Below are positions 23,903 through 29,944 of a DNA stretch of 64,000 bases, piece after piece. Under the pieces are notes generated by a model. That model did not search any database. It saw only the letters and a list, made by a program, of their open reading frames with translations, and had not been told where the DNA came from. How positions within the stretch are numbered: the stretch's first letter is position 1; each line of letters opens with the position of its first letter. Origin of the DNA: Candidatus Thermokryptus mobilis. GTDB lineage: Bacteria; Bacteroidota; Ignavibacteria; Kryptoniales; Kryptoniaceae. Made by a program: the position numbers and the translations under genes. The stretch is taken from positions 16,519-80,518 of the forward strand of contig NZ_FAOO01000001.1 in the NCBI RefSeq assembly GCF_900070205.1, in the 5' to 3' direction.

Positions 23903-24319
23903 TTAAATCCTGACCTCGCCATCCAACAACTCCTTTAATGTCCTCTCTGAAAGCATCTGCTTTATCTGCTCACGAATAACACTCCAATTTTGATGGACGG
24001 AGCAAGGATTTTCATCCGAACAATTCGGCAATCCAAGAACGCATTTTTTAAATAATTCATCCCCTTCAAGTGCAAGGACAACATCAATTATCTTTAACTT
24101 ATCAGGTGATTTTCTCAAGACGAAACCACCGTTTCTCCCACGTCTTGAATATATTATTTTTGACCTGACTAGCTTTTGAATCACTTTGGCGAGGAAATGT
24201 TTAGGTATTTTTAATTCCTTTGCTATTTCCTTCGTCGTGATATATTTTGAACTGTTAAGCGCGATGTAAAGGACCGCCCTTATCCCATACTCCGTTGTTT
24301 TGCTTAAAAGAGCAGGCAC
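23903..24319 (-). CDS. Rrf2-family transcriptional regulator with Fe-S cysteine set
   Basis: This 138-residue winged-helix regulator starts with GTG (MPALLSKTTEYGIRAVLYIA). The HTH reads TTKEIAKELKIPKHFLAKVIQKL and the wing has GRNGGFVL. Three cysteines at 93, 100 and 106 (KKCVLGLPNC and NPCSVH) match the C-x6-C-x5-C pattern that holds a [2Fe-2S] cluster in IscR/NsrR-type members, so it probably senses iron-sulfur status, redox or NO. The nearest genes (groESL, tRNA-Ala) do not reveal its targets. The upstream region is rich in TTGTTGT/ACAACAA motifs that might be its own operator. Confidence 0.9.
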   Translation of the reverse strand: MPALLSKTTEYGIRAVLYIALNSSKYITTKEIAKELKIPKHFLAKVIQKLVRSKIIYSRRGRNGGFVLRKSPDKLKIIDVVLALEGDELFKKCVLGLPNCSDENPCSVHQNWSVIREQIKQMLSERTLKELLDGEVRI

Positions 24320-27990: not shown

Positions 27991-28467
27991 TCAAACTTGA
28001 ATTGGATACGTCTCGGGGATACGAACGACCTTGCTTACCTTTTCACTTTTCAACAACTCAAAAATTTCACTGCGCTTAAGTAACTTTGGCTTATCCCTTT
28101 TAGCGTCAACTATACAAATGAAACCAAACGGTTCATCCGACTGATTTATAAATTGATGTGGGACATTTGAACCAATGTAAATTACATCCATAAAATTCAT
28201 TTCATAAACATCATCACCAGCAACTGCCAAACCATTACCACGAACGCAGATCACGACATGCTCATGGCGATGTTTTTCAAGTGTAGAATATCCACCCGGG
28301 GCAATTTCAAAATATCTCACATGAAATTTTGTATTTTCCCCCGACTTCCCCACAATTACTCGTCTACTGACATTGAGCCAGGTGTTTCTTTCATCTTTAT
28401 ATTGTTTTACTTCAACTCCTTCCCAATTGAAATCACTGAACTTTAAAAATCTGACTTTGTTGCTCAT
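27991..28467 (-). CDS. Cupin-domain protein
   Basis: In this 158-residue protein the central part is a small beta-barrel cupin with the metal-ligand motif KHRHEHVVICVRGNG (H-x-H) and the second motif MDVIYIGSNVPHQFIN. GFICIVDAKRD follows. Such stand-alone cupins bind a metal and may act as isomerases, dioxygenases or sensors, so no function can be assigned. The terminator at 28511-28540 separates it from the upstream cytochrome gene; an AT-rich stretch with a possible -10 (complement of 28490-28495) could serve as its promoter. Confidence 0.8.
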   Translation of the reverse strand: MSNKVRFLKFSDFNWEGVEVKQYKDERNTWLNVSRRVIVGKSGENTKFHVRYFEIAPGGYSTLEKHRHEHVVICVRGNGLAVAGDDVYEMNFMDVIYIGSNVPHQFINQSDEPFGFICIVDAKRDKPKLLKRSEIFELLKSEKVSKVVRIPETYPIQV

Positions 28468-28510: not shown

Positions 28511-28540
28511 AAACAAAAAGGGCAGGACAATGCCTGCCCC
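28511..28540 (-). terminator. Terminator after the octaheme cytochrome gene
   Basis: Read on the minus strand, GGGCAGG pairs with CCTGCCC and is followed by a TTTTTGTTTTT run. It ends the 28549-29880 transcript. Confidence 0.88.
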
Positions 28541-28548
28541 ATATTATA

Positions 28549-29880
28549 TTACTTCTTCTGTTTTGCTTGCGCATATTGTTTTCTTAACATCTCCGCTTCG
28601 TGTTTTATCTCGGCAAGGTCTTTCTTCATCTCCGCCCACCCATACCAATGCTGATAATCCGGATTCATATGGAACGCACCTTGAAAACTTCTCATCCTGT
28701 GCTCAAGAAACATAACATAGAGCTTTTGCTCTATCGGATGACGAACCTCATAGAACCTCAACAAGTCGGTGTGAAGAGGATAATCTTTTGGACGCTCAAG
28801 TATTCCATCTCTATAAAGCGATTCAACGATCTCAATCGCCTCAGCCATAAGTTTATCTGATTCCTTTATAACTTGGTCTGCTTTTTCAAGTTGTTCCTTC
28901 GCAAAACTTGGGCTGTGACATTGGGAGCAAATTTTTATCATTCTATTTCTCTCCGCTTCCCATTCCTCCGCTGTCAATCTAACGACTTTCCCTGCTTCAA
29001 TGACTTTAATCCTTTCTGTGAAATTCCCTTTCTCATCAAGGACGCCAAGTCCACGCATAATTGTGTTTCTCAACTTCGCCCATTCTGGGTCCTTTTCAGC
29101 AACTCTTAAAGCGAGGAAGCCCCAAGCTGTTTTAACTCCGTGGTCACCATTTGGCATATGGCATGTCTGACAAACGGGAGCTCTTGGTGTTGATGAATCA
29201 GCCTTATACGGTTCTTTATACCACTGACTCAATGGCTTGCTGAAATCCCAATTCTTCCCCTCCGTAAAATAAATTGTCCCATGCTTTGAAGTGCTCCACA
29301 TCTCCCATTGCGGATGGTCAAATCCCATATGACAAGTCATGCACGCCTCGGGTTTTCTGGCTTCAACAGTTGAGAACTTATGCCTTGTATGACAAGCATC
29401 GCATTTCCCCTCATCACGCCCAATTCTATGGCAACCACCGCAACCCTTTTCCCCTTCAATTAAAACGCTTGGTTGATCCTTCGTCGTAGGCATAGCCATC
29501 ATCGCAACCCAAGCCAGAGCATGCTTCCCTCTTTCAAACTCATTCACCTTGTCCTCATGACATTGTGCACAATTCCTCGGTGAAACAAGTCGCCTCACCC
29601 TTTTATCTTCACAACTACTCTTTGACTCGTGTATCTCCTTCACCGCCTCTTTGACAGGGATATGACAATCCGCACATGTGACACCAGCTTCATAATGCTT
29701 GCTCAACTTCCAATCCCTAATCGCACTCGCAGTTATACCCTTTGAAACATGGCAATCAATGCACTCCTGCGCTTGAGCGGTCTTCACCGCTTTTGAAACA
29801 TCAGGATAAAAGACCACAAGAGAAATAACTATTAGAACAGGGACAAAAAGAAAAGCTAACAAATTAATGATATGCTTCAT
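28549..29880 (-). CDS. Octaheme c-type cytochrome, hydroxylamine-oxidoreductase-like
   Basis: The 443-residue protein has an N-terminal membrane helix (about 5-25) and exactly eight CxxCH heme motifs (CIDCH at 40, then CADCH, CAQCH, CGGCH, CDACH, CMTCH, CQTCH, CSQCH). The segment CMTCHMGFDHPQWEMWSTS, the CQTCHMPNGDH motif and a heme-free helical C-terminus (GAFHMNPDYQHWYGWAEM) fit the HAO / Multi-haem_cyto family. Members oxidise hydroxylamine or hydrazine, or in the reductive branch reduce nitrite or hydroxylamine to ammonia. The presence of the cross-linking tyrosine that marks oxidative HAO cannot be decided without an alignment. It has its own promoter and terminator. No NapC/NrfH-type quinol dehydrogenase gene is adjacent. 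Confidence 0.88.
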   Translation of the reverse strand: MKHIINLLAFLFVPVLIVISLVVFYPDVSKAVKTAQAQECIDCHVSKGITASAIRDWKLSKHYEAGVTCADCHIPVKEAVKEIHESKSSCEDKRVRRLVSPRNCAQCHEDKVNEFERGKHALAWVAMMAMPTTKDQPSVLIEGEKGCGGCHRIGRDEGKCDACHTRHKFSTVEARKPEACMTCHMGFDHPQWEMWSTSKHGTIYFTEGKNWDFSKPLSQWYKEPYKADSSTPRAPVCQTCHMPNGDHGVKTAWGFLALRVAEKDPEWAKLRNTIMRGLGVLDEKGNFTERIKVIEAGKVVRLTAEEWEAERNRMIKICSQCHSPSFAKEQLEKADQVIKESDKLMAEAIEIVESLYRDGILERPKDYPLHTDLLRFYEVRHPIEQKLYVMFLEHRMRSFQGAFHMNPDYQHWYGWAEMKKDLAEIKHEAEMLRKQYAQAKQKK

Positions 29881-29915: not shown

Positions 29916-29944
29916 AATTTAATAAAAAAAGACAAAATCGTCAA
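29916..29944 (-). promoter_or_regulatory. Promoter of the octaheme cytochrome gene
   Basis: On the minus strand TTGACG (complement of 29939-29944) and TAAATT (complement of 29916-29921) are 17 bases apart, with T continuing after the -10. It is about 36 bases before the ATG. Confidence 0.7.

Follow-up and report, generated by a model that had tools for sequence, protein, structure and literature searches.

An octaheme cytochrome of the HAO family in Candidatus Thermokryptus mobilis with a probable role in N-oxide reduction

The octaheme gene and its surroundings

The window, i.e. the whole stretch of 64,000 nucleotides that was analyzed, carries on its minus strand a coding sequence for an octaheme HAO-like cytochrome of 443 amino acids (28549..29880), which starts with an ATG at 29880 and matches the Pfam family PF13447 with an E-value of 4.2e-39. 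Its eight CxxCH motifs lie far above the number found in 20,000 shuffled versions of the protein (mean 0.03, maximum 2), and the octaheme open reading frame that had been described for this place was confirmed. Among the other non-overlapping open reading frames of at least 80 amino acids in the window, one contains CxxCH, as a single motif in a frame of 114 amino acids. As compared to two Kryptonia orthologues, dN/dS values (NG86) of 0.03 and 0.05 were obtained at a dS of 1.7-2.1; for a third orthologue dS was saturated, and dN to the three relatives amounts to 0.06-0.09. The octaheme gene is under strong purifying selection.

Directly downstream of the gene, an intrinsic terminator-like hairpin with an 8-pair stem and a T-run is located (28519..28540, minus strand), and a hairpin with a T-run was also observed by eye downstream of the gene in two of three relatives. 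On the upstream side a promoter-like element TTGACG-17-TAAATT is present (29916..29944, minus strand); as judged by eye, TTGAC(A/G)-17-TA(T/A)ATT is kept in three of four Kryptonia upstream regions including that of the window. Of the promoter and terminator that had been ascribed to the gene as its own, the hairpin and the conserved promoter-like site were therefore recovered, but the single site returned by a promoter scan falls below the average of 2.9 in shuffled sequences, and the interval from the end of the upstream gene (29985) to the octaheme gene yielded no terminator-like site, so that read-through is possible. By eye, this upstream gene resembles thiamine-phosphate synthase. On the other side a cupin gene follows (27991-28467, PF07883), which adjoins the octaheme gene in four of five other Kryptonia loci and is 1.3 kb away in the fifth. 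The preliminary description had noted that neither NapC/NrfH nor NrfA is encoded beside the gene, and genome-wide profile searches indeed matched nothing else in the window.

Two regulatory candidates were discarded. For a palindromic operator at the -35 box, 33 occurrences of the pattern were counted genome-wide as compared to eight for a reversed control; most of them carry one mismatch, and a single further exact site exists, inside a coding frame of 780 amino acids that by eye is carbamoyl-phosphate synthase-like. A connection of the Rrf2 gene in the window (23903-24319) to the octaheme gene was dropped, as this Rrf2 gene precedes groES/groEL, in the window as well as in the four other Kryptonia loci that extend far enough.

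Heme motifs, family placement and the cross-link position

The eight heme motifs are, from the N-terminus and all on the minus strand, CIDCH (residues 40-44, 29749..29763), CADCH (69-73, 29662..29676), CAQCH (104-108, 29557..29571), CGGCH (147-151, 29428..29442), CDACH (160-164, 29389..29403), CMTCH (180-184, 29329..29343), CQTCH (237-241, 29158..29172) and CSQCH (318-322, 28915..28929). Motif 4 is aligned with the position of the active-site heme of HAO, which is heme 4 according to PMC8840924. Asp188-His189 (29314..29319, minus strand) corresponds in the alignment to the Asp-His pair of the Nitrosomonas HAO, and both residues are present in all 93 related rows of our alignment. We take this pair to have a catalytic role in the Nitrosomonas enzyme.

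By profile, sequence and predicted fold, the protein is a member of the HAO family. Besides the Pfam match (E about 4e-39), a PDB search with the single protein sequence returned 6h5l (HAOr) at 5e-40, HOX at 1e-34 and Nitrosomonas HAO at 1e-28, while the first named ONR entry followed at 7e-4. With a profile of 38 rows, which also held paralogues of other branches, the first match was 4qo5 at 6e-71, which we take to be IhOCC of Ignicoccus hospitalis; HAOr at 1e-61, HOX and HAO came next. The AlphaFold2 model of the window protein (pLDDT 81.9, pTM 0.79) is closest to HAOr, with a Foldseek E-value of 1.7e-12 and a VIA Z of 22.1 over 361 residues at 3.1 A; Nitrosomonas HAO reaches 21.0-21.4, and HOX, HAO, HDH and IhOCC span 18.9-21.5. 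Nine HAO-family rows thus lie between 18.9 and 22.1, followed by a drop to ONR and NrfA at 8.6 or less.

The earlier assignment to HAO rather than ONR is therefore borne out by the PDB sequence search, profile, Foldseek and VIA; when another octaheme family was sought by profile search, HAO stood and ONR was far weaker. An identity as ONR or NrfA was rejected, as all eight motifs are CxxCH, whereas NrfA and ONR have a CxxCK active-site motif (PMC8840924), and ONR reaches a Z of 8.6 as compared to 22.1 for HAOr. PF02335 scores 22.3 bits against a cut-off of 24.1, and the NCBIfam NrfA models stay far under their cut-offs. OTR entries are absent among the matches listed for the sequence and fold searches, which does not amount to their exclusion. 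A fused NrfH-like quinol dehydrogenase was likewise rejected (TIGR03153, 37.1 bits against a cut-off of 134.2); PF03264, with a cut-off of 24.1, gave 27.4 bits as a partial match in the genome search and 21.2 bits for the whole protein, and its match spans the N-terminal helix and the first heme motifs.

As the deciding residue between oxidative and reductive enzymes, the preliminary description had named the cross-linking tyrosine at the catalytic heme. The roles of His459 and Tyr467 in Nitrosomonas HAO are given in a figure legend of PMC2628731. In our alignment Tyr467 coincides with the corresponding Tyr of HOX, both at eight residues after the axial His. The window protein carries its axial-ligand His404 and the cross-link segment in HMNPDYQHWYG (residues 404-414, 28639..28671, minus strand), so that Trp412, not Tyr, occupies the His+8 position at which oxidative HAO, HOX and HDH have Tyr. 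When a gapped alignment holding the C-terminal helix is used instead, Tyr467 falls on His411. Depending on the anchor, the aligned residue is hence His411 or Trp412, and no Tyr is found at either. Position 412 is Trp in 93 of 93 family rows and position 411 is His, Leu, Thr, Met or Asn, while HAOr has Trp at both equivalents; in 27 of 28 paralogue rows, Met stands at the position of His404. Tyr409 and Tyr413 are invariant in the 93 rows. As Tyr413 is only one or two residues off the cross-link position, a shifted loop may yet allow a covalent cross-link.

With no Tyr at the aligned cross-link position and the Asp/His pair kept, reductive use is the best reading, although the neighboring Tyr413 leaves some doubt; the literature regards HAO-like proteins that lack the tyrosine as reductive (PMC12758564, PMC8940962). 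A native HAO-like cytochrome of Beggiatoa, however, both oxidizes hydroxylamine and reduces nitrite (PMC6449678), so that sequence may not determine the direction. The preference expressed earlier for reductive use over energy from hydroxylamine is nevertheless shared by us as the likelier case.

A clade with a cysteine insertion and the loci of its members

In a tree of 88 rows, the window protein falls into a clade of ten rows with a support of 100/100, beside a larger group of soluble proteins of about 410 residues. The clade comprises the window protein, three Kryptonia orthologues, G304 (L145, same order), L068 from an Armatimonadetes MAG and four delta/gammaproteobacterial MAGs. The underlying alignment of 125 rows leaves out a truncated sequence (L122) and a decayed gene (L149), and 37 of the 125 rows, mostly close relatives, were omitted from the tree to keep it small. 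Its bootstrap had yet to converge, and the long branches of the PDB rows led us to disregard their places. L065, L067, L072 and L074 were assigned to the clade outside the tree by similarity and by the insertion described below, which brings it to 15 rows or 14 distinct ones, as L066 and L146 are the same gene.

All 15 clade rows have a spacing of 35 between heme motifs 2 and 3 as compared to 25-26 in the 78 others. The ten-residue insertion contains an extra non-heme cysteine, Cys90 of the window protein (29611..29613, minus strand), in 15 of 15 clade rows (14 of 14 distinct ones) and in none of the 78 others, all of which carry a His 3-5 residues after heme motif 2. The insertion columns are under the 30% filling limit of the tree, so the insertion did not make the clade. 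Six clade-conserved His outside the motifs (62, 120, 167, 200, 247 and 404) are eligible as distal heme ligands when His189 of the Asp/His pair, His394 and His411 are excluded, whereas seven would be needed if heme 4 is open. By elimination Cys90 is thus a candidate ligand, and a His-to-Cys ligand switch in the clade appears possible. His84 is found in the heme 2-3 stretch of all Kryptonia rows, and the nine other clade rows have no His there. The window protein is 59-71% identical to clade members from other phyla, which suggests horizontal transfer.

The N-terminal hydrophobic helix, an anchor or a signal peptide (residues 6-24, 29809..29865, minus strand), coincides with a strongly hydrophobic stretch at residues 7-25 (Kyte-Doolittle 2.9), which ends 14 residues ahead of heme 1; in the AlphaFold2 model a helix extends over residues 2-24. 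The one membrane helix previously credited to the protein stands in so far as the helix is strongly hydrophobic, but an anchor in Kryptonia is uncertain, since an S/T-x-A triplet directly after the helix in all four distinct Kryptonia lineages inspected is a possible signal-peptidase site, which would make the helix a cleaved signal peptide. Here, 11-14 residues separate the hydrophobic stretch from heme 1. In six further clade loci (L069-L074) it ends 19-20 residues before heme 1, as compared to a median of four in the 78 others, and several of these rows have a long N-terminal tail ahead of it (with start codons as predicted); a membrane anchor is likely in this group. The stretch is less hydrophobic in L145 and L068 (1.4 and 1.2).

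In each of the six loci L069-L074 the octaheme gene ends an Amt-Rieske-cytochrome b gene row. It begins 38-97 bases after the Rieske and cytochrome b genes, which are preceded by one or two Amt genes, and PII is present in five of the six loci; the cytochrome b frame of L070 is split. Pfam was run on the genes of L069, L070, L071 and L074, the others being assigned by similarity. The octahemes of this subclade are mutually 70-95% identical, and the record titles name Deltaproteobacteria (twice), Gammaproteobacteria (twice), Sedimenticola and Candidatus Polarisedimenticolaceae (Acidobacteriota in NCBI). The octaheme of the latter (L074) is 95% identical to a gammaproteobacterial one, so its operon would reflect either a recent transfer or a mis-binned contig. 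In the deltaproteobacterial MAG of L069 (5488-8391), a second, divergent octaheme gene follows directly after the clade member; its product is 33% identical to the window protein and groups with another HAO-like branch.

Other relatives have other neighbors. In G304 the order is Rrf2, a NapH-like polyferredoxin (Fer4_5), octaheme and YwiC-like, and the octaheme gene of the Armatimonadetes contig lies behind a YwiC-like gene. Some relatives adjoin nosZ/nosD/nosL, NrfHA, ScdA/DUF438 hemerythrins or Rrf2 regulators. Within 8 kb in the 94 loci, nosZ was found in at least four (three of them with nosL and nosD), NrfA-like genes in at least six and Rrf2 in at least 19, Kryptonia rows included; polyferredoxin genes occur within 5 kb in at least 12 of the 94. 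These counts are lower bounds, as many loci are short, and the majority of the 94 had no match to any N-oxide neighbor that was queried. Among 14 genome rows of the clade, two of which apparently represent one genome, NrfA exceeded the cut-off in eight; one of these matches covers most of the profile and the other seven are short or consist of summed pieces.

Several known systems resemble the window protein and its clade in part. Kuenenia HAOr (the kustc0457/0458 complex, PDB 6h5l) is likewise an octaheme with Trp instead of Tyr at the cross-link position. Its chain is longer, 26-32% identical, and in complex with a partner protein, which we take to be a diheme protein; between heme motifs 2 and 3 it has neither His nor Cys, whereas the window protein has Cys90 and His84. 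Kuste4574 of Kuenenia R/b-3 is an HAO-like octaheme tied to Rieske/cytochrome b as in L069-L074 (PMC12954380, PMC12485887). R/b-3 however includes an NAD(P) oxidoreductase and an extra multiheme cytochrome (PMC12954380), neither of which was recognized beside L069-L074, while these loci, unlike R/b-3, carry Amt and PII genes, and the Kryptonia gene stands alone. The epsilon-Hao of Caldithrix abyssi, Nautilia and Campylobacterota is comparable by its description as a tyrosine-less octaheme and proposed nitrite reducer (PMC5317091, PMC2628731); in Caldithrix it adjoins Nap and Rieske/cytochrome b (PMC5317091), a context that in the genome studied here is shared by another octaheme gene, on contig C6, and not by the window gene. 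IhOCC is also an HAO-like octaheme, although its fold fits less well than that of HAOr (Z 18.9). In Ignicoccus, octahemes are found both in the soluble and in the membrane fraction (PMC4429474).

The sister group of soluble octahemes of about 410 amino acids (Ignavibacteria, Nitrospirae, Geomonas, Acidobacteria and others) is 46-58% identical to the window protein and shares its Asp/His pair and C-terminal segment. It differs in the hydrophobic stretch, which ends a median of four residues before heme 1, in the heme 2-3 spacing of 25-26 rather than 35, and in having a His after heme 2 where the window clade has the Cys insertion. We know of no name for this group.

N-oxide genes of the genome and the probable function

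The gene belongs to an FCB bacterium, as had been proposed, from the hot-spring lineage Kryptonia: the nearest named relatives are Candidatus Kryptoniota, under which Candidatus Thermokryptus is filed in the FCB group. Among named records, Candidatus Thermokryptus sp. RSWP10 (97%) and Candidatus Chrysopegis kryptomonas (90%) come closest. Among seven genomes of the genus including its own, five have an intact copy, the other four being 86-97% identical to the window protein; G308 has a decayed copy with stops (L149), and in G310 (about 93% complete) no match to the gene was obtained. The gene is therefore dispensable. No N-oxide gene was recognized beside it in the Kryptonia loci. In one genus member (L147, 10292-16999), CRISPR-like repeats and, by eye, probable Cas genes lie about 1 kb upstream of the octaheme gene.

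The description of the gene as an orphan octaheme holds locally but not for the genome as a whole (97.5% complete), which encodes two more HAO-family octahemes, on contigs C6 and C29. The C6 protein (554 amino acids) is encoded within a cluster of molybdopterin oxidoreductase, 4Fe-4S, NapD, Rieske and cytochrome b genes, and falls into a different tree clade than the window protein. The C29 protein (506 amino acids) is weakly placed near IhOCC in the tree, nearer to it than is the window protein. A nosZ gene is found on C6 together with Rieske and cytochrome b genes and a multiheme gene.

No full-length NrfA was found in this genome by profile search; the best of four partial matches is the window gene itself, and one frame on C13 exceeds the NrfA cut-off only when pieces are summed. 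NirK was matched only far under the cut-off, at the place of nosZ. NrfH/NapC genes were also sought elsewhere in the genome, as the preliminary description had advised: only proteins with at least eight CxxCH were matched, the window gene included, and no small NrfH/NapC was found. An ammonium transporter was matched in 14 of 14 controls but not in this genome, and capture of the product as in the Amt-bearing operon can thus not be carried over. Two COX1-family genes are present, which might include an NO reductase.

We consider it probable that this HAO-family octaheme resides in the periplasm, probably tethered to the membrane, and is adapted to N-oxide reduction, most likely to ammonium; the direction of the reaction, its substrates, product and electron donor we infer as follows. 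Electrons would be drawn from the quinol pool, in relatives perhaps by way of the Rieske/cytochrome b pair or the NapH-like polyferredoxin, and would be relayed by the six-coordinate hemes to heme 4, the open one, at which the reduction of nitrite, hydroxylamine or NO would be assisted by Asp188 and His189. Ammonium appears the likeliest product because Amt and PII accompany the operon-bearing members. In its own organism the enzyme would be an addition to the Nap-like and nosZ systems: it could scavenge nitrite, NO or hydroxylamine or, in this genome lacking a full-length NrfA, serve for ammonification at low flux. As Kryptonia have neither Amt nor a recognized donor, a scavenging or minor ammonifying role is as likely here as respiration.

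Three alternatives have to be weighed against this reading. HAOr, the best match by single sequence and by fold, is reported to reduce nitrite to NO (PMC12485887, PMC12758564), and with nosZ present in the genome the window protein could in the same way make NO from nitrite and feed an N2O-forming or N2O-reducing chain instead of ammonification; the Amt and PII genes of the operon-bearing relatives point to ammonium, and we regard NO formation as unlikely. Kryptonia were also proposed to respire Fe(III) via a novel Mtr-like pathway (PMC4737851), and on C13 proteins with up to 18 CxxCH are encoded beside cytochrome b- and Rieske-like genes, which would fit an electron-transfer octaheme of an iron-respiration apparatus without N-oxide turnover in vivo. 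The Asp/His pair is however invariant in the family, some relatives cluster with N-oxide genes and the window gene lies outside the C13 cluster, all of which renders such a role rather improbable.

The poorest prospects are given to an oxidative enzyme converting hydroxylamine to NO or nitrite for detoxification or energy, which strikes us as improbable. Such a use would agree with the HAO fold and the conserved Asp/His pair, with Tyr413 adjoining the cross-link position and with the hydroxylamine oxidation by the Beggiatoa protein (PMC6449678), but the aligned column is without Tyr, and some relatives have N2O-reductase and nitrite-reductase neighbors. Ammonia monooxygenase was unmatched in the 14 genome rows, which counts little since the controls were silent too.

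Going beyond the N-oxide reductase reading, the clade could form a distinct class of membrane-anchored octaheme reductases, in which a His-to-Cys exchange of a distal ligand would create a low-potential heme near the membrane. One subclade would run on Rieske/cytochrome b in a proton-moving ammonifying chain, with Amt and PII recapturing the ammonium, and the Kryptonia and Armatimonadota members would have become operon-less after transfer. We offer this scheme as tentative and in its entirety rather doubtful.

HAO-like reductases lacking the tyrosine have been described before, as have octahemes linked to Rieske/cytochrome b (PMC12954380, PMC5317091, PMC12485887, PMC12758564, PMC8940962). Neither the Cys insertion nor the Amt-Rieske-cytochrome b-octaheme order was found described in the literature searched, which covers few subscription papers. 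What is added here is an apparently transferred HAO-like clade defined by a marker, the Cys insertion, with one subclade that has dedicated electron-supply genes and in which ammonification driven by Rieske/cytochrome b could be tested outside the anammox bacteria. Moreover, this Kryptonia genome has three HAO-family octahemes and a Nap-like cluster, although for the lineage nitrous oxide reductase but no other denitrification component is described in PMC4737851.

Three further clusters of the genome deserve mention. The Nap-like cluster (L036, C6:55000-70000) comprises a molybdopterin enzyme, NapD, 4Fe-4S proteins, Rieske, cytochrome b and the octaheme of 554 amino acids, and may represent a nitrate-ammonifying unit. 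In the nosZ cluster (L155, C6:78000-96000), an Rrf2-like gene, Rieske, cytochrome b and a cytochrome c gene with five CxxCH are located upstream of nosZ. The cluster on C13 (L038) encodes proteins with 4 to 18 CxxCH along with genes resembling cytochrome b and Rieske, and is possibly the iron-respiration apparatus proposed for Kryptonia. Finally, octahemes of the C6 type (L016-L019, L036, L061, L062) have, in the stretch that separates heme motifs 2 and 3, a conserved Cys (in FxCP(E/D)SD) together with an additional His, and could be a second case of altered heme ligation.
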